A DNA stretch of 50,595 bases from Acidobacteriota bacterium (GTDB taxonomy: Bacteria > Acidobacteriota > Thermoanaerobaculia > Thermoanaerobaculales > Sulfomarinibacteraceae), in contig JAHECW010000015.1 in assembly GCA_024641545.1 (NCBI GenBank), forward strand, positions 1 to 50,595, written 5' to 3'. Below, in pieces: positions 15,433-42,203 of the stretch (positions within the stretch are counted from its first letter, which is position 1; each line of letters begins with the position of its first letter). Made by a program: the position numbers and the translations under genes. The notes beneath the pieces are model-generated. The model worked only from the letters and a program-made list of their open reading frames with translations. It made no database searches and was not told where the DNA came from.

Positions 15433-15583
15433 CGCTGATGATACAATCTCAATGATCAGAGCGATTTAGTGTGACTCGGAGGGTCTGACGCAGTACCGCA
15501 GCAAGGTCGATGGGGACTCCTCGGACGGCATCCGGATCGCTGCACCCTACGATTCGGACCCGGCCCTTCTCGCCAACGGCGGC

Positions 15584-18229
15584 GTGCTCGACGATCGGGC
15601 ATTCGACAAAGAGCTCAGAAATCGAAACCTCCCCATGCTGTTGTGGACCGCGGTGGTCTTCAACGCCGCCTATGTCGGCTGGGCCCTCTTCGACTATGTC
15701 CTGGTCCCCGACCTGTGGTCGACCTTCCTCGTGTTCAGGATCATCGCGGTGGCGATCAACACCGCCATGGTCGTGGTCATCTTCAGACCGCGCTTCCGCA
15801 GGTACAGCTTCGAGGGGTTCTGGCTGTTGGTGGTGGTCTATTGCAGCTTCATCGCACCGATGCTGCCCCTGGCGGGCGACAACTTCGCCAAGTACATCAT
15901 GGGTCTCGCCGTCACCATGGTGGGCGCCGGGGTCATTCCTGTGTGGCATCCCCGGTGGCCCGTCACCGCGCTCGTTGTCGTCGGCCTGGTCAACGCGGCC
16001 TTCTTCTTTCCCATGTGGGACGGCGATCCGCCGATGCAGGAAGTGGTGGCCAACAGCTTCGTGCTCATCACCGCCTTCGGGCTCGCTGTGGTGGCCTCGA
16101 TCTTCAAGTACGATCTCGCCAAGCGCGATTTCCTCAGCCGCGTCCAGTTGGCGACGGTGGCGCGCCGGGAATCGGAAGCGAGGAAGGTCCTGGCCAGGAC
16201 CTCGGACGATCTCCAGACCGCGCTCGAGAAGCTCAAGGAGCTCGATCGCCTCAAGAGCCAGTTCTTCGCCAATATCTCGCACGAGCTTCGAACGCCGCTG
16301 ACCCTCATCCTGGCGCCCTTGAGCGAGCTCGACTCCACCGTGACCGGGGCCGAGGCGCGGCAGCAGGTCAAGGTCATTCGCCGCAATGCCGAGCGGTTGC
16401 TGGGCTTGATCAACGATCTCCTCGATCTCTCCAGCCTCGACGCCGGCGGGCTGCGGCTCAACCTCTCCGAGATGGATATCCGGTCGGTGGTCGCATCGGT
16501 GCACGAGAACAGCATGCCGGCGGCCCAGGCCGCAGGCATCGACCTCGAGATCACGAGCGGAGCATCGACGCACCGGATCTGGGGCGATGCGCACCGCCTC
16601 GAGATCGTCATGACCAACCTGGTTTCCAATGCCCTCAAGTTCACCCAACGGGACGGCCGGATCGAAATCCGGGTTGAGGATCTCGACGACGGGGTTCGGA
16701 TCGAGGTCGAAGACAGCGGGGTGGGGATCCCCGAGCAGGACCTGCCGCGGGTCTTCGAAAGGTTTTTCCAGGTCAACCCGGCCGATCGCAGGCGCGAAGG
16801 CGGTGTCGGGATCGGCCTTGCCCTTGCCAAGGAGTTGGTCGAGTTGCACGGGGGGACCATCGCCGTCGAGAGCCCGGGTGAAAAAGGGACGGTCTTCACG
16901 ATCTTTCTTCCATTCGGTCGTGAGCACATCCGACCCGAGGCCATCGAACGGCGCCAGCAGTTCGAAGAACCTCTGGTTCGCCGGCGGGCGGAAGACGCTT
17001 CGGAGTATCCGTCCGATATCGAGGTTCCGGAACCCGAGATCGAAGAGGGTCTCGATCTGTCGGCCGGCGACTACCCGGCCGGTGTCGGTCCGGTGCCTTT
17101 TCTTGCCGGTCGCCGGCCGCGGATTCTCCTCGCCGAGGACAACCCGGAGGTGCAGGAGTTCATCAGGACCCTGCTCGAGCCTCTTTTCGAGGTGGCGGTC
17201 GCCGACGACGGCGCCGAGGCTCTGGAGATCGTTCGAGCCGAATCGCCCGATCTGGTGGTGTCGGACGTGATGATGCCGAGGATGAGCGGCATCGAGCTGT
17301 GCCGGGCGATCAAGAACGATCCCGTGCTGAAATCGACGCCCGTGATCCTGCTGACCGCCAAGGTGGGTTCGGAAGCCACTCTCGAGGCCTATGCCCACGG
17401 CGCCGACGACTTTGTCGCCAAACCGTTCCATCCGCGGGTCCTCATGGCCCGGATCCGGGCTCAGCTCAACCTCAGGGCGTTGGCGCTGCACCTGGCGCAG
17501 CAGGAGAAGCTCGCGGTGGTCGGGACGATGTCGGCCGGTATCCTCCACGAGGTTCGCAACCCGGTCAACGCGATTCTCAACGCCTCCCGGGCGATGGCGT
17601 CGAACACCCTCGACGATGTCACCCAGCGGCAGCTCGTCGAGGTCATCGGCGATGCCGCGGTCCGAATCGAGGAGATCACATCGGCGCTCGACACCCATGC
17701 CCGGCCGGCCGAAGCGGGCGAGACCGAATTCTGCGATCTGAGAGAAGGCCTCGAGGCCACGCTCAAGCTCATCTCGCACCGGCTCGATGACGTCGGGGTT
17801 CACCGGGACTTTGCCACCGACCGTCTGGCGAAAGCCCCGGCCGGCCCGATGAACCAGGTTCTCCTCAACCTCATCGACAACGCCGTGCGGATGGGTGCGA
17901 AGAACCTCTGGATCAGCATCGAGGCCGACGAGACCAACCTCGTCGTCAAGGTCGGAGACGACGGTCCCGGGGTCGCGAAGGAACATCTGGACCGGATCTT
18001 CGATCCGTTCTTCACCCACCGACCCGCCGGCGACGGAACCGGGCTGGGTCTCTTCTTGTCGCGAAAGATGGTCGAAGAAGCCGGCGGATCGCTGCGAGTC
18101 AAAGACAGATCCGGCGGTGGGGCCCTGTTCATCATGGTGGTTCCTGCGCTACCCTTGCAGTCGGAGCCTGGGAGGGCGCTGAACCATGACCGGAATGGGG
18201 CGTCACAGCAGGTGAAACCTACGCCTTGA
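15584..18229 (+). CDS. Membrane hybrid histidine kinase, HK-REC-HK (PhcS-like candidate)
   Basis: The protein has 881 residues. About six hydrophobic segments (20-175) precede a coiled stretch (KLKELDRLKSQF). The first kinase module has NISHELRTPL (His233), an N-box (NLVSNALKF), DSGVGIP and GVGIGLALAKEL. A receiver domain follows near 505-630 (LLAEDN, phospho-acceptor Asp561 in VVSDVMMP, Lys in FVAKPF). A second kinase module has GILHEVRNPVN (His655), NLIDNAVRM, DDGPGV and GTGLGLFLSRKM. The GTG at 15584 is the only standard start in an open frame running from 15470; no Shine-Dalgarno is seen. TACAAT at 15442-15447 is a possible -10. The methyltransferase gene follows after 25 nt. It may sense a membrane-permeant signal made by that neighbour (inference). 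Confidence 0.9.
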   Translation: MLDDRAFDKELRNRNLPMLLWTAVVFNAAYVGWALFDYVLVPDLWSTFLVFRIIAVAINTAMVVVIFRPRFRRYSFEGFWLLVVVYCSFIAPMLPLAGDNFAKYIMGLAVTMVGAGVIPVWHPRWPVTALVVVGLVNAAFFFPMWDGDPPMQEVVANSFVLITAFGLAVVASIFKYDLAKRDFLSRVQLATVARRESEARKVLARTSDDLQTALEKLKELDRLKSQFFANISHELRTPLTLILAPLSELDSTVTGAEARQQVKVIRRNAERLLGLINDLLDLSSLDAGGLRLNLSEMDIRSVVASVHENSMPAAQAAGIDLEITSGASTHRIWGDAHRLEIVMTNLVSNALKFTQRDGRIEIRVEDLDDGVRIEVEDSGVGIPEQDLPRVFERFFQVNPADRRREGGVGIGLALAKELVELHGGTIAVESPGEKGTVFTIFLPFGREHIRPEAIERRQQFEEPLVRRRAEDASEYPSDIEVPEPEIEEGLDLSAGDYPAGVGPVPFLAGRRPRILLAEDNPEVQEFIRTLLEPLFEVAVADDGAEALEIVRAESPDLVVSDVMMPRMSGIELCRAIKNDPVLKSTPVILLTAKVGSEATLEAYAHGADDFVAKPFHPRVLMARIRAQLNLRALALHLAQQEKLAVVGTMSAGILHEVRNPVNAILNASRAMASNTLDDVTQRQLVEVIGDAAVRIEEITSALDTHARPAEAGETEFCDLREGLEATLKLISHRLDDVGVHRDFATDRLAKAPAGPMNQVLLNLIDNAVRMGAKNLWISIEADETNLVVKVGDDGPGVAKEHLDRIFDPFFTHRPAGDGTGLGLFLSRKMVEEAGGSLRVKDRSGGGALFIMVVPALPLQSEPGRALNHDRNGASQQVKPTP

Positions 18230-19742: not shown

Positions 19743-19754
19743 GGAAGGTATGGC

Positions 19755-20885
19755 ATGAACGACACCATTCTCTATATCGACGATGATGAGGCGAATCTCA
19801 TCGTCCTCAAGGCGACCTGCGCGGGTGAGCTCAACGTCGTCACCGCGTCGAGCGGTCGCGAAGGGCTCGCTCTCCTGGCCGAGCAGGAGGTGGCGGTGCT
19901 GCTGGTCGATCAACGGATGCCCGGGATGACCGGCGTCGAGGTCTTCGAGGTTGCCCGCGAACAATACCCCGATGTGGTCCGGATTCTGATCACCGCCTTC
20001 ACCGATCTCACCGAAGCCATCGCCGCCATCAACCGCGGCCACATCCGCCGCTATCTGAGAAAACCTTGGGAGCCCGAGGAGCTCAAGGCGGCGCTCCGCG
20101 AGGCGGTGGAGATCTACCAGACCCGGAAGAAGATCGCCGATCTGGAGACCCGGCTGCTCGAGACCGAACGCACCTACGCCCTCGGCGTGGTCGCGGCCGA
20201 GGTCGCCCACGAGCTGCGGAATCCCCTCGCCGCCATGAGCATGAACCTCGAGCTCGCGCGGATCCGCCTCGATGCCATGAATCGCAGCCTCGCCGAGGGC
20301 GGTTCCGTCGATCCCGCCAATCTGGTCTCTCTGACCAACGCGCTGGAGAAAATCGAAGGAGCGGTCGAGAGTTCGAAGAAGATCGCCGACGGGCTCGAGC
20401 TGAGCCATCGCCGGCGGGACGAGGAAACCACCGCCGACCTCGGCGAGATCCTCGAGCTCACCCTCAAGTTCATGCGCGCGGCGCTGCTCAAGCGGGCGCG
20501 GCTCGAGGTCGAGACCGCCGTCGTCCCCATCGTGCAGGGTTCGCCTCGCGAACTCGGCCAGGTGCTGGTCAATCTGCTGGTCAACGCCATGCAGGCGATG
20601 CCGGACCAGCCGCCGAGCGAAAGTCTGGTCGGTGTCCGTCTCGCGCCGTCGGACGAGATGGGCTGGGTCCAGCTTCAGGTCTACGACAACGGCGAGGGCA
20701 TCCGGGAGAATCTCGTCGATCGGGTCTTCGATCCGTTCTTCACCACCAAGACCCAGGGAGGGACCGGGCTCGGCCTCGCGATCTCGAAGAAGATCGTCGA
20801 GGAAGCCGGCGGGACGATCACTGCGACCAGCGTCCTCGGCGAAGGCACCACCTTCACCGTGCGGCTCCCGGTTGCGGTGAGTTGA
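19755..20885 (+). CDS. Response regulator-histidine kinase protein, REC-HK (PhcR-like candidate)
   Basis: The protein has 376 residues and starts 12 nt after the methyltransferase gene, with GAGGAAGG before the ATG. An N-terminal receiver (ILYIDDDEAN at 5-14, Asp52 in LLVDQRMPG, Lys in YLRKPW) is joined by a coiled coil (about 118-142) to a kinase with AEVAHELRNPLAAM (His152), NLLVNAMQAM, DNGEGI and GTGLGLAISKKI. A receiver whose output is itself a histidine kinase is the arrangement of PhcR. There is no membrane segment or DNA-binding domain, so any transcriptional output needs another partner outside this operon. The last gene of the operon. Confidence 0.92.
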   Translation: MNDTILYIDDDEANLIVLKATCAGELNVVTASSGREGLALLAEQEVAVLLVDQRMPGMTGVEVFEVAREQYPDVVRILITAFTDLTEAIAAINRGHIRRYLRKPWEPEELKAALREAVEIYQTRKKIADLETRLLETERTYALGVVAAEVAHELRNPLAAMSMNLELARIRLDAMNRSLAEGGSVDPANLVSLTNALEKIEGAVESSKKIADGLELSHRRRDEETTADLGEILELTLKFMRAALLKRARLEVETAVVPIVQGSPRELGQVLVNLLVNAMQAMPDQPPSESLVGVRLAPSDEMGWVQLQVYDNGEGIRENLVDRVFDPFFTTKTQGGTGLGLAISKKIVEEAGGTITATSVLGEGTTFTVRLPVAVS

Positions 20886-30873: not shown

Positions 30874-33129
30874 CTACATCTCCGACCGCATGTTCGGCGT
30901 CGGCCCCGACTGCGCGAGAACCCTCGCGATGGGTCTGAGCGAAAGCCACCACTGCTCCAGCGGACGCTGGTGCTGTTCGTCGACGAGTCTCGGCAGATCC
31001 CTGAGATCGAGCGTCTGGATGGTCCCGCCCTGGAGACCGATGGCGGACACCGAACTGCGGCCGTGTTCGGCCTCGTCGATCAGGTGGGCGATGCAGCGCT
31101 TGGCAAACCTCGTTGCCAGGATCCGGTCGAACGGGGTCGGGCTCCCGCCCTGCTGGAGGTGACCGAGGATGGCCTGGCGCACCTCGAAGAGATCGCCGCC
31201 CTCTTCCTCGAAGAGCGCCGCCATGAACGGGGTCGTGTAGGTCTCGTTGGTCATCTCGTTGCGAATGATCAGCCCGAGGCGTTTGCCGCGCCGGAAGCCC
31301 TGCACCAGGTGGTCGAGATCGGCCTTCAAATCGGCGAGGGTGACGCCCTCCTCGTGCATGTAGACCCGCTCGGCGCCGGTGGAGAGCCCGCCCATCAGGG
31401 TGAGATAGCCGCAGTACCGCCCCATGACCTCGACGACGAAACAGCGATTCGAGGCGACCGCCGATTGCTTGATCTTGTCGACCGCCTCGACGATGGAGTT
31501 GAGTGCGGTGTCGGCGCCGACGCTGAGCTCGGAGCCGGGGAGGTTGTTGTTGATGGTTGCCGGCAGGCACATGATCGGGATGTCGAAGGCCGGAAACGCT
31601 TCCCGTTTGCTCAAAAAGCGATAGGCGGTTTGATAGGCCGACCATCCGCCGATGATGAGGATGGCGTCGATCCGCCGGTCTTCGATGGTCCTGGCAATGG
31701 TGTAGAAGTCGTGCCCCGAGGGCACCTTGCGGTTGATTCCCAGTTCGCAGCCCCCGCTCGACGACCAGCCGCGCACGCTCATCCACCCGGGTTCCTCGAT
31801 CCGGCCCTCGATAAAGCCGGCGAATCCGTTGCGGACGCCGAGCATGACGTGGCCGGCATCGAGGCCGAGGCGGACCGCGGCTCGGACGGCGGCGTTCATC
31901 CCCGGGGCCGGCGCCCCCGAGTGGACCACGGCGATCCTGAGCCGGCGCTGATCCGGTCGCGGCGGACTCGGCAGCGACCGCAGCAGGGTGTCGAGGGTGT
32001 CGATGCTGTCCGAGAAGCTCCCTCCGCGGATGCGGAGGGCCTCATCGTGGCGACCGTCGGCGATGGCCTGGGCAGCCAAGACGGTTTGTTCGACGCAAGC
32101 CGCGAGGGGTTGATGTTGGATTCGGTTGTTTCGGACACCCATGAGCTGGGGTTCCGCTCCGGCATCCTGGGACAGGACGAACTGAACGGCTGCGTGTCCC
32201 AGGAGGGTGCTCATGGTGCGGTCGAACGCGCTCGGGGAACCGCCGCGCTGGACGTGGCCGAGGATGGTGAGCCTCACCTCCTCGGCCATCCCGCGCTCGA
32301 GGATTTCGCGGACCTCGCCCGAGGTGATGGGCTTGCCGTGCCGGTCGTGGGCCCCTTCGGCGACGACGACGATGCTGTCGCGGCGTCCCGCCTTGCGGCC
32401 CGCACTCAGGCGGTCGCACAGGCGTCGCGCCCAGTCGTCGTCCTCCGGCGGTTTCTCCGGGATGAAGACCGCATCGGCGCCGGTCGCGAGGGCGCTCATG
32501 AGGGCGAGATAGCCGCAGTTCCGCCCCATGACCTCGACGACGAAGGTGCGTTGATGGCTCGCGGCGGTGCTCGTCAGGGCGTCGATCGCCTGGGTGATGC
32601 GGTGCAGCGCGGTGTCGGCGCCGATGGTCATGTCGGTGCCGAAAAAATCGTTGTCGATGGACCCGGCGAGACCGGCGAGGACGATCCCGGTCCGTTTCTC
32701 CACGGCTTCCGGTGGCAGCTCTCCGGCAGCGACCAGGTCGTCGACGTGCTCGGACCACTCGCGGTGGAGCAGATCAGCGGCCGTCAGGCTTCCGTCGCCG
32801 CCGATGACGATGAGGCGGGAGACGTCGTTTTGGATGAGGTTGCGAACCGCCGCCCGGCGCCCCTCGGGTCTCCGGAAGTCGGGACTGCGGGCGCTCCCGA
32901 TGGCGGTGCCGCCGAGGTGGAGAATGCCGCCGACCGAGTCCCAATCCATGGTTTGGAAGTGGTCGCCGCCTGCGACCAAGCCCCGGAAGCCCTCGGTGAT
33001 GGCGACGACCTCGACCCCCTGATCGAGGGCGGATCGGACGATGGCGCGCAGCGCCGGGTTCATCCCGGGAGAGTCGCCTCCGGATGTAAGGATGGCCAGG
33101 CGGCCGTCAAGTGAATGTGCTACGGGCAT
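30874..33129 (-). CDS. pfkA: Tandem-duplicated 6-phosphofructokinase of eukaryotic type
   Basis: The protein has 751 residues made of two fused PFK halves (about 8-385 and 395-740). The first half has intact catalytic motifs: TSGGDSPGMN, GGDGS (110-114; Gly at the ATP-selecting position), AGSIDND with catalytic Asp159, and MGRNCGYLAL. In the second half GGDGS is GGWSA (494-498) and the catalytic motif is ATINNN (Asn527 in place of Asp), while sugar-binding MGRYCGYLTL and LGHLQQGGSP remain. So the first half should phosphorylate fructose 6-phosphate with ATP and the second half is probably an allosteric or structural copy, as in fungal and animal PFK. GGAGG lies 9 nt before the ATG. It is divergent from the REC-LpxC gene. 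Confidence 0.93.
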   Translation of the reverse strand: MPVAHSLDGRLAILTSGGDSPGMNPALRAIVRSALDQGVEVVAITEGFRGLVAGGDHFQTMDWDSVGGILHLGGTAIGSARSPDFRRPEGRRAAVRNLIQNDVSRLIVIGGDGSLTAADLLHREWSEHVDDLVAAGELPPEAVEKRTGIVLAGLAGSIDNDFFGTDMTIGADTALHRITQAIDALTSTAASHQRTFVVEVMGRNCGYLALMSALATGADAVFIPEKPPEDDDWARRLCDRLSAGRKAGRRDSIVVVAEGAHDRHGKPITSGEVREILERGMAEEVRLTILGHVQRGGSPSAFDRTMSTLLGHAAVQFVLSQDAGAEPQLMGVRNNRIQHQPLAACVEQTVLAAQAIADGRHDEALRIRGGSFSDSIDTLDTLLRSLPSPPRPDQRRLRIAVVHSGAPAPGMNAAVRAAVRLGLDAGHVMLGVRNGFAGFIEGRIEEPGWMSVRGWSSSGGCELGINRKVPSGHDFYTIARTIEDRRIDAILIIGGWSAYQTAYRFLSKREAFPAFDIPIMCLPATINNNLPGSELSVGADTALNSIVEAVDKIKQSAVASNRCFVVEVMGRYCGYLTLMGGLSTGAERVYMHEEGVTLADLKADLDHLVQGFRRGKRLGLIIRNEMTNETYTTPFMAALFEEEGGDLFEVRQAILGHLQQGGSPTPFDRILATRFAKRCIAHLIDEAEHGRSSVSAIGLQGGTIQTLDLRDLPRLVDEQHQRPLEQWWLSLRPIARVLAQSGPTPNMRSEM

Positions 33130-33264: not shown

Positions 33265-34560
33265 ATGAACGAACTCATTCTGATTGTCGATGATGAAGTG
33301 GGGATCCTCACCACCATGTCGCAGGTTCTCGGCGACGAGGGTTTTCGCACGCTGACCACGACCAGCGGCGAAAAGGCCCTCGATCTGTATCGTGAACACC
33401 ATCCCGACGTGGTCTTCCTCGATATCTGGATGCCCGACAAGGACGGGCTCGAGGCGCTCCAGGCGATCCTGGAGATGGACTCGGGCGCCCTCGTGGTCAT
33501 GATGTCGGGCCACGGAACCTCGTCGACGGCGGTCAAGTCGATCAAGATGGGGGCGCAGGACTATCTCGAGAAACCCCTGTCCTACGACCAGACGGTGGCG
33601 GCGGTCCACGATGCGTTGCAGGTCCGCAGAAAACGGGCCTCTGCCGGTGAAGGCGGTGTGCTCGAGGCCGCCAAGCACCAAGCGGTCGGCGAGCTCGATC
33701 CCCCTCCGGAGCTCAGCCTGCTGGTGACGACCGACCGACCGCAACGCACCATCAAGAGTCCGAGTGTGATCTACGGTCTCGGGCTGCACTCGGGCGGTCG
33801 GACAGGGATGGTGATTCAACCGCTGCCCCCCGACACCGGGATCCACTTCATCACCCTGCCCGCGGGCAACGTGATACCCGCCCAGATCAGCGCGGTTGCC
33901 GAGACCGACTACGCCACCTCCATCACCCGTCAGGGTGAGCACATCAAGACCGTCGAACACCTCCTGTCCGCGCTCCACGCGTGCGGCATCACCAACCTTC
34001 TGGTCAAGGTCCACGGCGAGATCCCGGTCCTCGACGGATCGGCCCTGGGGTTCCTCGATCGGATCGAGGAGATCGGGGTGGAGAATCAGGACCGCCCGGT
34101 CAAGGAGCTGGTCATCGACCGGGTCTGGGAGGTCGGCGACGGCAAGGGGAAGAGTCTCACCATCGAACCGGCGGATGTCTTCTCGGTGTCGTACCTCCTG
34201 CGTTACCCGCAGCCCATCGGCGAACAGTTCTACGAGTTCACCATGACCGGCTGCGAAGCGTACCGACGAGAGATCGCACCCGCCCGGACCTTCGGTTTTG
34301 TCCGCGACATCAAGATGCTCAACGAGCTCGGTCTCGGTGGTGGCGGCCGGCTCGACAACTTCATCATGGTGGGGGACGACGAGGTCATCAACACCGAGCT
34401 GCGGTTCCCGGACGAGTTTGTCCGCCACAAGATCCTCGACATCATCGGCGATCTCTACCTGCTCGGTTACCCGGTGCGCGCCAAAGTGACCGCGCGCTTC
34501 ACCGGCCACCGGGACAACATCGCCCTGCAGCGGAGGATCCTGGCCGATCTCGGAGCGTGA
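33265..34560 (+). CDS. lpxC: Response-regulator receiver domain fused to LpxC deacetylase
   Basis: The protein has 431 residues. Residues 1-120 are a receiver domain: ILIVDDE (Asp9, Asp10), phospho-acceptor Asp53 in VVFLDIWMP, Ser81 in MMSGHGT and Lys103 in LEKPL, NtrC/NtrX-like. After a short linker, 160-431 are UDP-3-O-acyl-GlcNAc deacetylase: SPSVIYGLGLHSG, TVEHLLSALHACG (Glu231, His232), RTFGFVRDI, HKILD (His388, Asp392) and TGH (His415). All zinc and catalytic residues are present. LpxC makes the committed step of lipid A synthesis and is normally controlled by proteolysis. Here phosphorylation of the fused receiver could set its activity (inference). No dedicated histidine kinase adjoins it. 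The start is the first ATG with GGAG upstream (33251-33254 and 33260-33263). Confidence 0.93.
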   Translation: MNELILIVDDEVGILTTMSQVLGDEGFRTLTTTSGEKALDLYREHHPDVVFLDIWMPDKDGLEALQAILEMDSGALVVMMSGHGTSSTAVKSIKMGAQDYLEKPLSYDQTVAAVHDALQVRRKRASAGEGGVLEAAKHQAVGELDPPPELSLLVTTDRPQRTIKSPSVIYGLGLHSGGRTGMVIQPLPPDTGIHFITLPAGNVIPAQISAVAETDYATSITRQGEHIKTVEHLLSALHACGITNLLVKVHGEIPVLDGSALGFLDRIEEIGVENQDRPVKELVIDRVWEVGDGKGKSLTIEPADVFSVSYLLRYPQPIGEQFYEFTMTGCEAYRREIAPARTFGFVRDIKMLNELGLGGGGRLDNFIMVGDDEVINTELRFPDEFVRHKILDIIGDLYLLGYPVRAKVTARFTGHRDNIALQRRILADLGA

Positions 34561-39095: not shown

Positions 39096-42000
39096 TCAGG
39101 ATCGCTCGATCTCGGGTGAGGTCTCGAGCAGCTCGCCCTCCGCGAGGATGAGCGGCAGATAGGGGCGGCTGGTGGTCATCGAGTGGATGATCTGGGTCGT
39201 GAAGACCGGGCGATCACCTCGAAAGACGCGGATCAGGAAGTTCCACTCCCGGTCAGGGCCTTCACCATCGGCTCGCCTGAGCGTGGCGGACCAGCCGCTG
39301 GCCTGCGCTCCGATGATGGTCGGGTGAGCGAGCGCCACATCGGGCCGCGGCCCGGGTTCCGCGGTGATCTTCGATCCGCCCTGCGGGTCGATCTCCACGG
39401 TCAGCGGGAAACCGTCCTCGGAGAGCAGCCAGCCGCCGATGACGAGACCCTCCTCGGTCTGTTCGATGGTGTCGAGACAGCCCTGGATCCGTGGGCCGCG
39501 GGGCGCGCCGAGACCGACCATCGCGCCGGCGGCGGTCGCCCCGGCGATCTCGGAAAGCGCGCCGTCGAACGCGTCGGCGGTCTCCTCGATCGCGCGATCG
39601 TCGTGGGCCGCGTTGGGCAGCAGAGTGCCGTTGGTGACGACGCCTCGACGGAGACAACCGTCGATGAACCACTCGAGCAGACGTTGACCGCGCAGCTTTC
39701 CGTGGTCGTCGAAGCTGATGTTCATCCGCGACGGGTGGCCGGTCAGGCGCGCCGCGAGGCCGAGCTCGCCGGCTCGTCGGTCGAAGACCGCCCGCAGCTT
39801 CGACCCGGTCGCCGCGAGCCGCGCCGCGACGTGGTCGCGTTCGAGGATCGCGAGCACCGAGCGGGCGGCGGCCAGCGACGTCGTCTCCGCCCTCCAGGTC
39901 ATATCGACGCCGATCTGCGGCCACCGGTCCATGAGGTCGGCGCGGCCGACCAGGGCCGAGATCGACCACCCGTTGGCCATCGCCTTGCTGAAGCAGGCGA
40001 GGTCGGGGGTCACGCCCGAGAGCTCCTGCATCCCTCCGGGAGCGAACCGGAAGCCGGTGACGATCTCGTCCCAGACGAGGACGGCGCCGTGTCGGTGCGC
40101 GAGGTCTCGGACCCCCGCGAGATACCCCTCCTCGGGTAGGAGCTGTTTGGCCGGTTCCATCACGATCACCGCCACCTCGTCCCGGTGACGCATCAGGAGC
40201 GCCTCGAGGGCGTCGAGATCGCCCCACGGGAACTCGCGGATGAGCGGTCCGAGGGCAGCCGGGATCCCGCCGATCGCCGGGTTCGAGGCGGCGAACCAGT
40301 CGTGGAAGCCGTGGTATCCGTGAAACAGCACCAGCTCGCGGCCGGTGACCAGGCGGGCGATCCGGATGGCTGCCGTGACCGCATCCGATCCGTTCTTGCC
40401 GAATCCCACCTTTTCCGCGCACGGAATCAGCCGTTTGAGAGCCTGCGCGACCTCGAGCTCGAGGGGGTGGCCGAAGGGCAAGACGGGCCCACAGGCGAAC
40501 TGGGCCTGCGCCGCCCGCTCCACCTCCCGGCAGCGGTAGCCGAGGATGACCGCGCCGTAGCCGCTCATCCAGTCGAGGTAGCTCCGGCCGCAGGTGTCGG
40601 TGAGCCGGCAGCCTTCGGCCGCGGTGACGAACTGGGGGTAGAGCAGGGCGTCGTCCTGGTACAGCGGGCGGAGGCCGGTCACCACCGGCGCGTAGGCCAG
40701 ATCTCGGCGACAGCGTCGAACCAGGTCGACGGTGGCGGCGATCCGGTGCTCGGTCGGAGGCGCGGCCCTGCACGACCTGGTCCGCGGAGGGTGCGGGTCC
40801 GATGGAGCCAAGTGGTCGACGAGGCCTCGCACCAGCGCCGAGGTCGGGGGGTCGAGCCGCGGTTCGAGATCGAGCAGTCCGTCGAGAACGCGGCGGGATT
40901 GCCGGTTCAGATGGGCGGGATCGCGGTAAAACCGGTGCAGCCCGCGGGCGACCGACAGGGCGAGGTCCGCCGCCGCGGCGGAATTCGCGGCGGCGAGTCC
41001 GGCGGCGCTGTCGTGCAGCCGCGATTCGAAGTCCGAGAGATCGGGCGCATGGCATTCAAGGGTCTGGCGCAGACCGGCGGGGGGGTCGGGGAGGTCGCGC
41101 TGCGAACGGATGCCGGCGGCGACCGGTCCGTTCCGGGTCAGGACCACGCGGAGTTCGCCGACACCGGCATCGACCGCGATCGCATGCGCCCGGCGCAGCT
41201 CGTCGGCGCTCGAGTTGTGGTTGAAGAGAACATACTTCCAGACGACCCGGGTCGGGTGGCGGCCGGCGCGGGCCGCCGCCGCGACGTCGCGCATGAATCG
41301 GACGGCGACGGGGAACGAGCCGCCGACCCGATACCGCGCATAGCTCGACTCGCACGCGCCGTCGATGGCGCAGACGATCTCGTCGACGCACTCCGTGGCC
41401 TGCCGGTCCTTGAGAACCGCCTGACAGTTGGTGGTCACCGAAACCCGGGTTCCGGGAAAGAGCTCCTTGACGAGGCGTGTCTGCCGCCACAGCTCCGGGT
41501 GCATGAGAGGTTCGCCGTGGCCCTGGAAGTCGACCGCTTCGATGGCGATCCCGGCCTCGGCGAAATCGGAGAGGATCCGTTTCAGCAGGCCGCTGTCGAG
41601 GTTGCCCGGGGGAGCGGCCCGCCGGACCGAGAGCGGGACGCAGCCGGGGCAATCGAGCGAGCACTTGTACGAGGGCTCGATCTGCAGCACCCGGATTCGC
41701 CGCCGGTCCACCGCCTCGGACGAGTGGACACCCCGGGTTTTCAACACCAGGCAGTTCTGGCAGGTCTCGCCAAAGGGCATCCGCCCCTGCCACAGCAACC
41801 GCCGCACCCGTTCGTAGGGTTCGCCGAGCCAGACCTCTCGTCCGTAGTGGAGGTCGCCTCCGGGTTGGTGAAGAACGGTGTCGTTGCCGGCGTCGTCCCA
41901 GCAGACCAGATTGCCGGAGGCGCGGAGGTAGATGGAATCGACCGACGGGCAGACCAGGGTTTCCCGCGCCGGCCGTCGCAGGGGGGACGCCCATCGCCCC

Positions 42001-42203
42001 TCCGATCGACCGTGGTCGAGCCAGTGGGACCGCGCATCGCCCTCTGAGCTCAGCCCGGCGGCGCGGAGATCCGGATAACGGTCGAGGTACGCGGCCCAGT
42101 CGAAATCGCCGGGTTCGACCGCCGCGGCCGAAGCTCGACCGGCCGGGTCACCGAAGGGCGGTCGGCGGTGTCGTGCGAAACGGTCGAAGAATCCTCGGAT
42201 CAC
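39096..42203 (-). CDS. SPASM-like / radical SAM / class III aminotransferase fusion
   Basis: The protein has 1035 residues with a GTG start preceded by AAGGGGG. Layout: a short FDWAAYLDRYPDLRAAG..HWLDHGRSEGR unit (34-72) of the kind found in polysaccharide-related proteins; a SPASM-like cysteine set placed before the radical SAM core (C85, C101, C148-x2-C151); radical SAM motif C181-x3-C185-x2-C188 with GHGEPLMHPE; a helical linker; a PLP fold-type I class III aminotransferase (about 530-920) with GFGKNGSDA, VWDEIVTGFRF and Lys740 in FSKAMANG, close to glutamate-1-semialdehyde aminomutase; and a C-terminal beta domain (930-1030, GWLLSEDG, RPDVALAHP). It may build or modify an amino sugar or a peptide by coupled radical and amination steps (inference). 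An MFS gene lies next on the same strand, in the upstream direction. Confidence 0.82.
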   Translation of the reverse strand: MIRGFFDRFARHRRPPFGDPAGRASAAAVEPGDFDWAAYLDRYPDLRAAGLSSEGDARSHWLDHGRSEGRWASPLRRPARETLVCPSVDSIYLRASGNLVCWDDAGNDTVLHQPGGDLHYGREVWLGEPYERVRRLLWQGRMPFGETCQNCLVLKTRGVHSSEAVDRRRIRVLQIEPSYKCSLDCPGCVPLSVRRAAPPGNLDSGLLKRILSDFAEAGIAIEAVDFQGHGEPLMHPELWRQTRLVKELFPGTRVSVTTNCQAVLKDRQATECVDEIVCAIDGACESSYARYRVGGSFPVAVRFMRDVAAAARAGRHPTRVVWKYVLFNHNSSADELRRAHAIAVDAGVGELRVVLTRNGPVAAGIRSQRDLPDPPAGLRQTLECHAPDLSDFESRLHDSAAGLAAANSAAAADLALSVARGLHRFYRDPAHLNRQSRRVLDGLLDLEPRLDPPTSALVRGLVDHLAPSDPHPPRTRSCRAAPPTEHRIAATVDLVRRCRRDLAYAPVVTGLRPLYQDDALLYPQFVTAAEGCRLTDTCGRSYLDWMSGYGAVILGYRCREVERAAQAQFACGPVLPFGHPLELEVAQALKRLIPCAEKVGFGKNGSDAVTAAIRIARLVTGRELVLFHGYHGFHDWFAASNPAIGGIPAALGPLIREFPWGDLDALEALLMRHRDEVAVIVMEPAKQLLPEEGYLAGVRDLAHRHGAVLVWDEIVTGFRFAPGGMQELSGVTPDLACFSKAMANGWSISALVGRADLMDRWPQIGVDMTWRAETTSLAAARSVLAILERDHVAARLAATGSKLRAVFDRRAGELGLAARLTGHPSRMNISFDDHGKLRGQRLLEWFIDGCLRRGVVTNGTLLPNAAHDDRAIEETADAFDGALSEIAGATAAGAMVGLGAPRGPRIQGCLDTIEQTEEGLVIGGWLLSEDGFPLTVEIDPQGGSKITAEPGPRPDVALAHPTIIGAQASGWSATLRRADGEGPDREWNFLIRVFRGDRPVFTTQIIHSMTTSRPYLPLILAEGELLETSPEIERS

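Follow-up and report, generated by a model that had tools for sequence, protein, structure and literature searches.

Several response regulators have enzymatic outputs, among them the CheB methylesterase and the GGDEF, EAL and HD-GYP proteins, and in these phosphorylation sets catalytic activity. All of them carry a receiver fused to an enzyme, and the enzyme acts on signalling molecules or proteins. The means by which cells adjust lipid A output to the needs of the envelope have been worked out in detail only in Enterobacteriaceae, where FtsH/LapB proteolysis is responsible, and in part in Pseudomonas. Two-component control of lipid A through lpxC has been described for NtrYX and ChvGI of alphaproteobacteria and for DVU2934 of Desulfovibrio vulgaris, in each case at the level of transcription (PMC7240162, PMC12444477, PMC3333781). 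Deletion of ntrYX in Rhodobacter sphaeroides raises the lpxC transcript 8.8-fold and about doubles LPS, and no NtrX site was found upstream of lpxC in that organism (PMC7240162). In D. vulgaris, lpxC is the only target of DVU2934 (PMC3333781). In a 2025 review of lipid A regulation, the two-component control listed for lpxC is all transcriptional (PMC12444477), and a 2026 review has no match for the terms two-component or receiver (PMC13333357).

We analysed a 50,595 nt stretch of DNA from an Acidobacteriota bacterium of the Sulfomarinibacteraceae (hereafter the window), which constitutes one contig (C307) of a genome of 5.38 Mb that is 99.4% complete. The window carries a gene, rec-lpxC, whose product joins a receiver (REC) to LpxC, the UDP-3-O-acyl-GlcNAc deacetylase with which a cell is committed to lipid A synthesis. 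This protein shares with LpxC of the E. coli, Aquifex and Pseudomonas type the complete catalytic domain, the zinc and catalytic residues and the fold, but adds the N-terminal receiver and belongs to a separate LpxC clade. It resembles NtrX of the NtrYX system in having a receiver placed in the NtrX clade, REC-LpxC of several lineages is encoded next to NtrY, and in Acidobacteriota it takes the place of NtrX; unlike NtrX, it lacks the AAA+ and Fis HTH domains, and its output is an enzyme rather than a DNA-binding activator. In contrast to NtrYX, ChvGI and DVU2934, which act on transcription, the receiver is within the enzyme itself and no sigma54 promoter is found upstream. Its architecture is that of CheB and the GGDEF, EAL and HD-GYP regulators, except that the output is a primary envelope biosynthesis enzyme present as the only copy. 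LpxC-FabZ (NF009667) is likewise an LpxC fusion, but there the partner is a C-terminal FabZ. Comparative sequence evidence leads us to propose, with a probability of roughly 0.77, that the window protein works as an LpxC and is at the same time the response regulator of NtrY, an envelope-sensing kinase. No paper describing REC-LpxC was found in the open-access full-text literature, and domain databases may list the architecture without comment.

A receiver joined to the only LpxC of its genome

The rec-lpxC gene is a single unbroken frame that runs from the ATG at 33265 to the TGA ending at 34560. Its features, in window coordinates, are as follows.

33265..34560, + strand: rec-lpxC gene, encoding the 431-aa REC-LpxC fusion, sole lpxC of the genome (Pfam, TIGR00325, genome search)
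33277..33606, + strand: receiver (REC) domain, residues 5-114, assigned to the NtrX type (PF00072, REC tree)
33289-33294, + strand: D9/D10 of the receiver active site (invariant in 43 fused proteins)
33421..33423, + strand: D53, predicted phosphorylation site (invariant in 43 fused proteins)
33505-33507, + strand: S81 of the receiver active site (invariant in 43 fused proteins)
33571-33573, + strand: K103 of the receiver active site (invariant in 43 fused proteins)
33607..33741, + strand: end of an extended helix 5 and interdomain linker, residues 115-159 (AF2 model; 127-140 predicted disordered)
33742..34542, + strand: LpxC deacetylase domain, residues 160-426 (PF03331, TIGR00325, Foldseek)
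33955..33960, + strand: E231-H232, catalytic base and zinc ligand, corresponding to Aquifex E78/H79 (alignment to 1p42; invariant)
34426..34440, + strand: H388-K389-x-x-D392, zinc ligands and active-site Lys, corresponding to Aquifex H238/K239/D242 (alignment to 1p42; invariant)
34507..34509, + strand: H415, general acid/electrostatic His, corresponding to Aquifex H265 (alignment to 1p42; invariant)

Response_reg (PF00072) matches residues 5-114 with an E value of 4e-28. The LpxC family (PF03331) matches residues 160-426 (E 1e-81), covering positions 1-267 of the 268-position profile at 274.7 bits against a cut-off of 27, and TIGR00325 gives 232.1 bits against its curated cut-off of 187.25. 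Pfam detects neither AAA+ nor Fis HTH nor FabZ domains in the protein. Assignment to the LpxC-FabZ bifunctional type was rejected, given this lack of FabZ and a score of 198 bits against a cut-off of 465. The receiver residues D9, D10, D53, S81 and K103 are invariant across 43 diverse fused members, down to 39% identity, and E231, H232, H388, K389, D392 and H415 are likewise invariant in the same alignment. These matches, together with the alignment to 1p42, bear out the original prediction, made from the DNA letters, of one frame holding a complete receiver, with these same five residues, and a complete LpxC. An Rfam search of the window returned no matches.

A model of REC-LpxC (AF2, built on the 43-row alignment) contains two well-folded domains, with a mean pLDDT of 87, and no confident interface between them (pTM 0.68; linker 127-140 disordered). 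By Foldseek, the LpxC half matches solved LpxC at an rmsd of about 1.5 A. Among solved structures, the receiver's best relatives are proteins of the NtrC family and NtrX, the latter including 4d6x and 5m7n of Brucella.

The only PF03331 match in the genome is rec-lpxC, so that a second, stand-alone lpxC is absent from the assembly, and lpxB and lpxK give one match each. REC-LpxC therefore very likely supports lipid A synthesis. No other LpxC is present in 32 of the 35 other fused-LpxC genomes searched; the three with a second copy are those of L084, L085 and L088.

Fused LpxC proteins form one clade

Two congeners of the window organism share the REC-LpxC architecture, at 90% and 86% identity. 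A wider search for proteins combining REC and LpxC, the check proposed at the outset, revealed a recurrent architecture, with 52 distinct fused proteins from Acidobacteriota, Thermodesulfobacteriota, Myxococcota, Nitrospirota, Nitrospinota and Binatota. The fusion is also present in members of Deltaproteobacteria, Thermodesulfovibrionia, Binatota, Nitrospirae and Desulfopila. The hosts are soil and sediment bacteria, and 18 of 396 sampled Acidobacteriota carry the fused form. The 60 genomes nearest to that of the window have either stand-alone LpxC (PF03331 scores of about 300-340 bits) or fused LpxC (about 260-290 bits), and some have both.

In a tree of 139 LpxC domains, all 52 fused proteins lie on one side of a branch with a support of 100, a side that also takes in L088, which is cut by its contig end. 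Fused LpxC is one clade apart from all stand-alone LpxC. This single, fully supported clade argues for one old fusion rather than repeated accidents.

Seven loci (L078-L083 and L086; Desulfomonile, Nitrospinota and others) encode intermediates of about 700 aa each INTERMEDIATES, in which the domain order is receiver, sigma54-type AAA+ with lid, LpxC. A Fis HTH match is still present in L080. All seven proteins have lost the GAFTGA loop and Walker B and kept Walker A. The location of these proteins inside the fused LpxC clade, coupled with their degenerate AAA+ domain, indicates that LpxC joined a regulator of the NtrC/NtrX type, in which the transcription module subsequently decayed. The decayed module was probably dropped more than once. 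The Walker A that is kept in these proteins may mark an ATP-binding spacer.

The receiver groups with NtrX

In a tree of receiver domains, those of REC-LpxC, REC-AAA-LpxC and NtrY-adjacent NtrX proteins group together with an SH-aLRT value of 95, on a branch that also holds two NtrC-like receivers (L269 and L270). Receivers of this clade stand apart from most others sampled, including those of the window's own genome. Drawn from a short alignment by a quick method, this placement is moderate evidence that the REC-LpxC receiver belongs to the NtrX clade. Some positions of receiver helix 1 depart from those of local NtrX (GIL-T versus GIRELLG), so sequence does not prove partner specificity. The NtrX-like gene of the two f39 genomes that contribute L269 and L270 was rejected as an adjacent NtrX; it lies 2 kb behind ntrY and has a long-branch receiver.

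NtrY is the candidate kinase

An NtrY-type kinase gene immediately precedes the fused gene at L068-L074, L078 and L080, with no more than a few tens of bases between the two or with an overlap. These NtrY-adjacent loci are of the deltaproteobacterial type and from Binatota, and the kinase, of about 750 aa, carries NtrY_N, HAMP, PAS, HisKA and HATPase domains. A search profile (A2) built from nine of these REC-LpxC-adjacent kinases finds one strong full-length ortholog in nearly every relative and fused genome. In the window's genome there is one outstanding match (G000:C180:73228-75258, E 2e-132; next best 2e-46), in which HAMP, HisKA and HATPase score above cut-off and NtrY_N is weak (21 versus 23.2 bits). 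By synteny, this candidate sits in the conserved ntrY locus. That locus and rec-lpxC are on different contigs, hence the gene is not adjacent to ntrY, in keeping with the earlier claim that the kinase is not encoded beside the window gene.

Most Acidobacteriota fused genes have no kinase gene within 8-10 kb, although in several of these loci the contig stops short of that distance; the nearest kinase gene lies 6.4 kb away (L043/L064). Two kinase genes of the window, at 15470-18226 and 19743-20882, were rejected as adjacent partners, both being of other types. The former (+ strand) is a 919-aa hybrid kinase reading frame with two HisKA domains, two HATPase domains and one receiver domain. Elsewhere the genome encodes dozens of other kinases and several other NtrC-like regulators, which are possible partners.

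All 43 fused-only genomes sampled, that of the window among them, keep ntrY without ntrX. The H box and the [DN]xGxG box of NtrY are preserved in every one of the 43, and the N box in 41.

Stand-alone lpxC and ntrX are lost together

In genomes with stand-alone LpxC the genes run lpxC - DUF4390 - ntrY - ntrX. They diverge from smpB, uvrA and a gene for an HD-domain protein, and behind them comes either a TPR gene or selB. In other phyla, lpxC is found just before ntrY at L109, L110, L134 and L135, with ntrX detected in three of the four. The corresponding locus of the window's genome (L178) reads DUF4390 - ntrY - TPR, without lpxC and without ntrX, and only 38 bases separate the ntrY and TPR frames. 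The best remaining NtrX-like match in this genome scores 482 bits, compared with 764-817 for the NtrX encoded beside NtrY in members of its family that have stand-alone LpxC.

NtrX is located beside NtrY in 28 of 30 relatives with only stand-alone LpxC, in eight of nine with both forms (in the ninth, G028, ntrY is near a contig end), in both of those with a fused gene and a decayed lpxC, and in none of 14 with only the fused form. On a tree of NtrY from 76 loci, adjacent NtrX occurs in 0 of 43 fused-only cases versus 29 of 33 others; among the four others that lack it, L110 has a partial NtrX match. Independent pairs on this tree number seven and divide about 6:0 (median sign-test p 0.03), the co-loss statistics thus comprising only about seven independent evolutionary contrasts.

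Two genomes, G036 and G024, have an intact REC-LpxC elsewhere, a partial, decayed lpxC remnant, and ntrX still beside ntrY. As their sequences read, they are the replacement caught halfway. The decayed stand-alone LpxC adjoins ntrY at L056 (G036:C436); the other is at L057 (G024:C194). A genome with stand-alone LpxC, G047 (L162), has no ntrX after ntrY, and its best NtrX match is on another contig. The DUF4390 gene (for example L178:10293-10835, - strand) stays with ntrY in most loci, with or without lpxC or ntrX, and its product may belong to the NtrY signalling unit.

Sigma54 promoters precede stand-alone lpxC

In 22 of 30 relatives, stand-alone lpxC is preceded by a sigma54 -24/-12 element, scored at a threshold of at least 9 of 10 consensus bases, where 0.13 is expected from dinucleotide shuffles. 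The element lies mostly 20-90 bases before the start. It is absent upstream of all 54 REC-LpxC genes and all 87 control genes, and it precedes one of 26 DUF4390 genes in lpxC-less loci. In fused-only genomes, then, the ntrY locus no longer has lpxC, ntrX or this promoter, while ntrY itself stays. The NtrX proteins of stand-alone relatives that were used for the profile contain GAFTGA. These promoters, coupled with the GAFTGA motif of NtrX, make it probable that the older circuit ran from NtrY through NtrX and sigma54 to the lpxC operon; we infer that NtrX acts at the promoter of stand-alone lpxC. The published NtrX site GCAn9TGC is not enriched upstream of lpxC. The pattern suggests sigma54/NtrX control of lipid A in Acidobacteriota. 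Stand-alone lpxC genes with a sigma54-type promoter were seen at L002-L031 and others.

Proposed mechanism and alternative explanations

These comparisons are best read as a rewiring of NtrY, which would once have controlled lpxC transcription and would now act directly on the LpxC enzyme via an NtrX-type receiver. In the ancestral state, NtrY would have signalled to NtrX, and NtrX to a sigma54 promoter ahead of lpxC-DUF4390-ntrY-ntrX. LpxC would then have joined an NtrX-like protein, as the existing REC-AAA-LpxC forms illustrate, and the AAA+ part would have decayed and later been dropped. In Acidobacteriota, REC-LpxC would have replaced both stand-alone lpxC and ntrX, with ntrY staying in place. 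Membrane-bound NtrY would sense the state of the envelope, autophosphorylate on its DHp histidine and pass the phosphoryl group to D53 of the receiver, all residues for this being present. The receiver would act on the LpxC joined to it, changing its activity, its stability or its recruitment to the membrane, and lipid A flux would thereby be set without transcription. Ancestral NtrX is built like a sigma54 activator and apparently acts at the lpxC promoter, so D53 phosphorylation would most likely raise LpxC output, a direction we lean towards, provided that the activating sign of the old circuit was kept.

Adjacency to NtrY, the NtrX-type receiver and the retention of NtrY thus favour the idea of the original prediction, that a kinase whose gene lies elsewhere controls LpxC directly. 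The contrast it drew with FtsH proteolysis holds for E. coli, but in other bacteria two-component systems are known to control the transcription of lpxC (PMC7240162, PMC3333781). We consider it likely that fused LpxC constitutes an ancient, multi-phylum class whose activity would be set directly by histidine-kinase phosphorylation, from NtrY to REC-LpxC. An LpxC addressed by a kinase would give several phyla a post-translational route that is both direct and fast, and the signal sensed by NtrY would become accessible via a simple enzyme assay. If this reading is true, a circuit of kinase, transcription factor, sigma54 promoter and enzyme has been rewired to one of kinase and enzyme, and the intermediates and decaying remnants of that rewiring are still visible in living genomes. 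REC-LpxC would then offer a well-documented example of a two-component output changing from transcriptional to enzymatic, and would help explain the recurrent envelope phenotypes of NtrYX, a system named for nitrogen control.

A possible alternative, which we hold tentatively and give appreciably less than even odds, is that phosphorylation acts not on catalysis but on stability or membrane placement, by way of proteolysis or of REC docking on NtrY. LpxC is under proteolysis in E. coli and under LapB-dependent membrane placement in Neisseria (PMC12444477), and the flexible linker of the model would demand no tight allosteric interface. This would be a variant of the NtrY to REC-LpxC circuit and not its contradiction.

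It is unlikely that the receiver is phosphorylated and controls LpxC but that the kinase in the window organism is not NtrY, which would then serve another regulator. The separation of rec-lpxC from ntrY and the many other kinases and NtrC-like regulators of this genome are what such an arrangement would look like. However, NtrY is the adjacent kinase in deltaproteobacterial-type loci, the receiver is of the NtrX type, and NtrY remains intact throughout the 43 fused-only genomes though its own NtrX is gone.

Less probable still is a receiver that is a structural or dimerisation relic without signalling, with the loss of ntrX merely following that of stand-alone lpxC. The association does consist of gene losses within one locus, which can go together, and ntrX may be needed only at the old lpxC promoter. 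A relic would, however, sit poorly with receiver active-site residues that are invariant in 43 proteins of several phyla, with the decay and disappearance of the AAA+ part between REC and LpxC, a fate that the receiver did not share, and with the keeping of an orphan NtrY. An assembly or annotation artefact joining two genes, raised as a caveat at the outset, has a negligible chance of being correct and is rejected, because both congeners and many further genomes of several phyla carry the same fusion.

Two further reading frames of the window have unusual domain content. That at 30874-33129 (- strand) encodes 751 aa with tandem phosphofructokinase domains (PF00365, two stretches), and that at 39096-42203 (- strand) encodes 1035 aa with a weak N-terminal Fer4_12 match and a class III aminotransferase domain.
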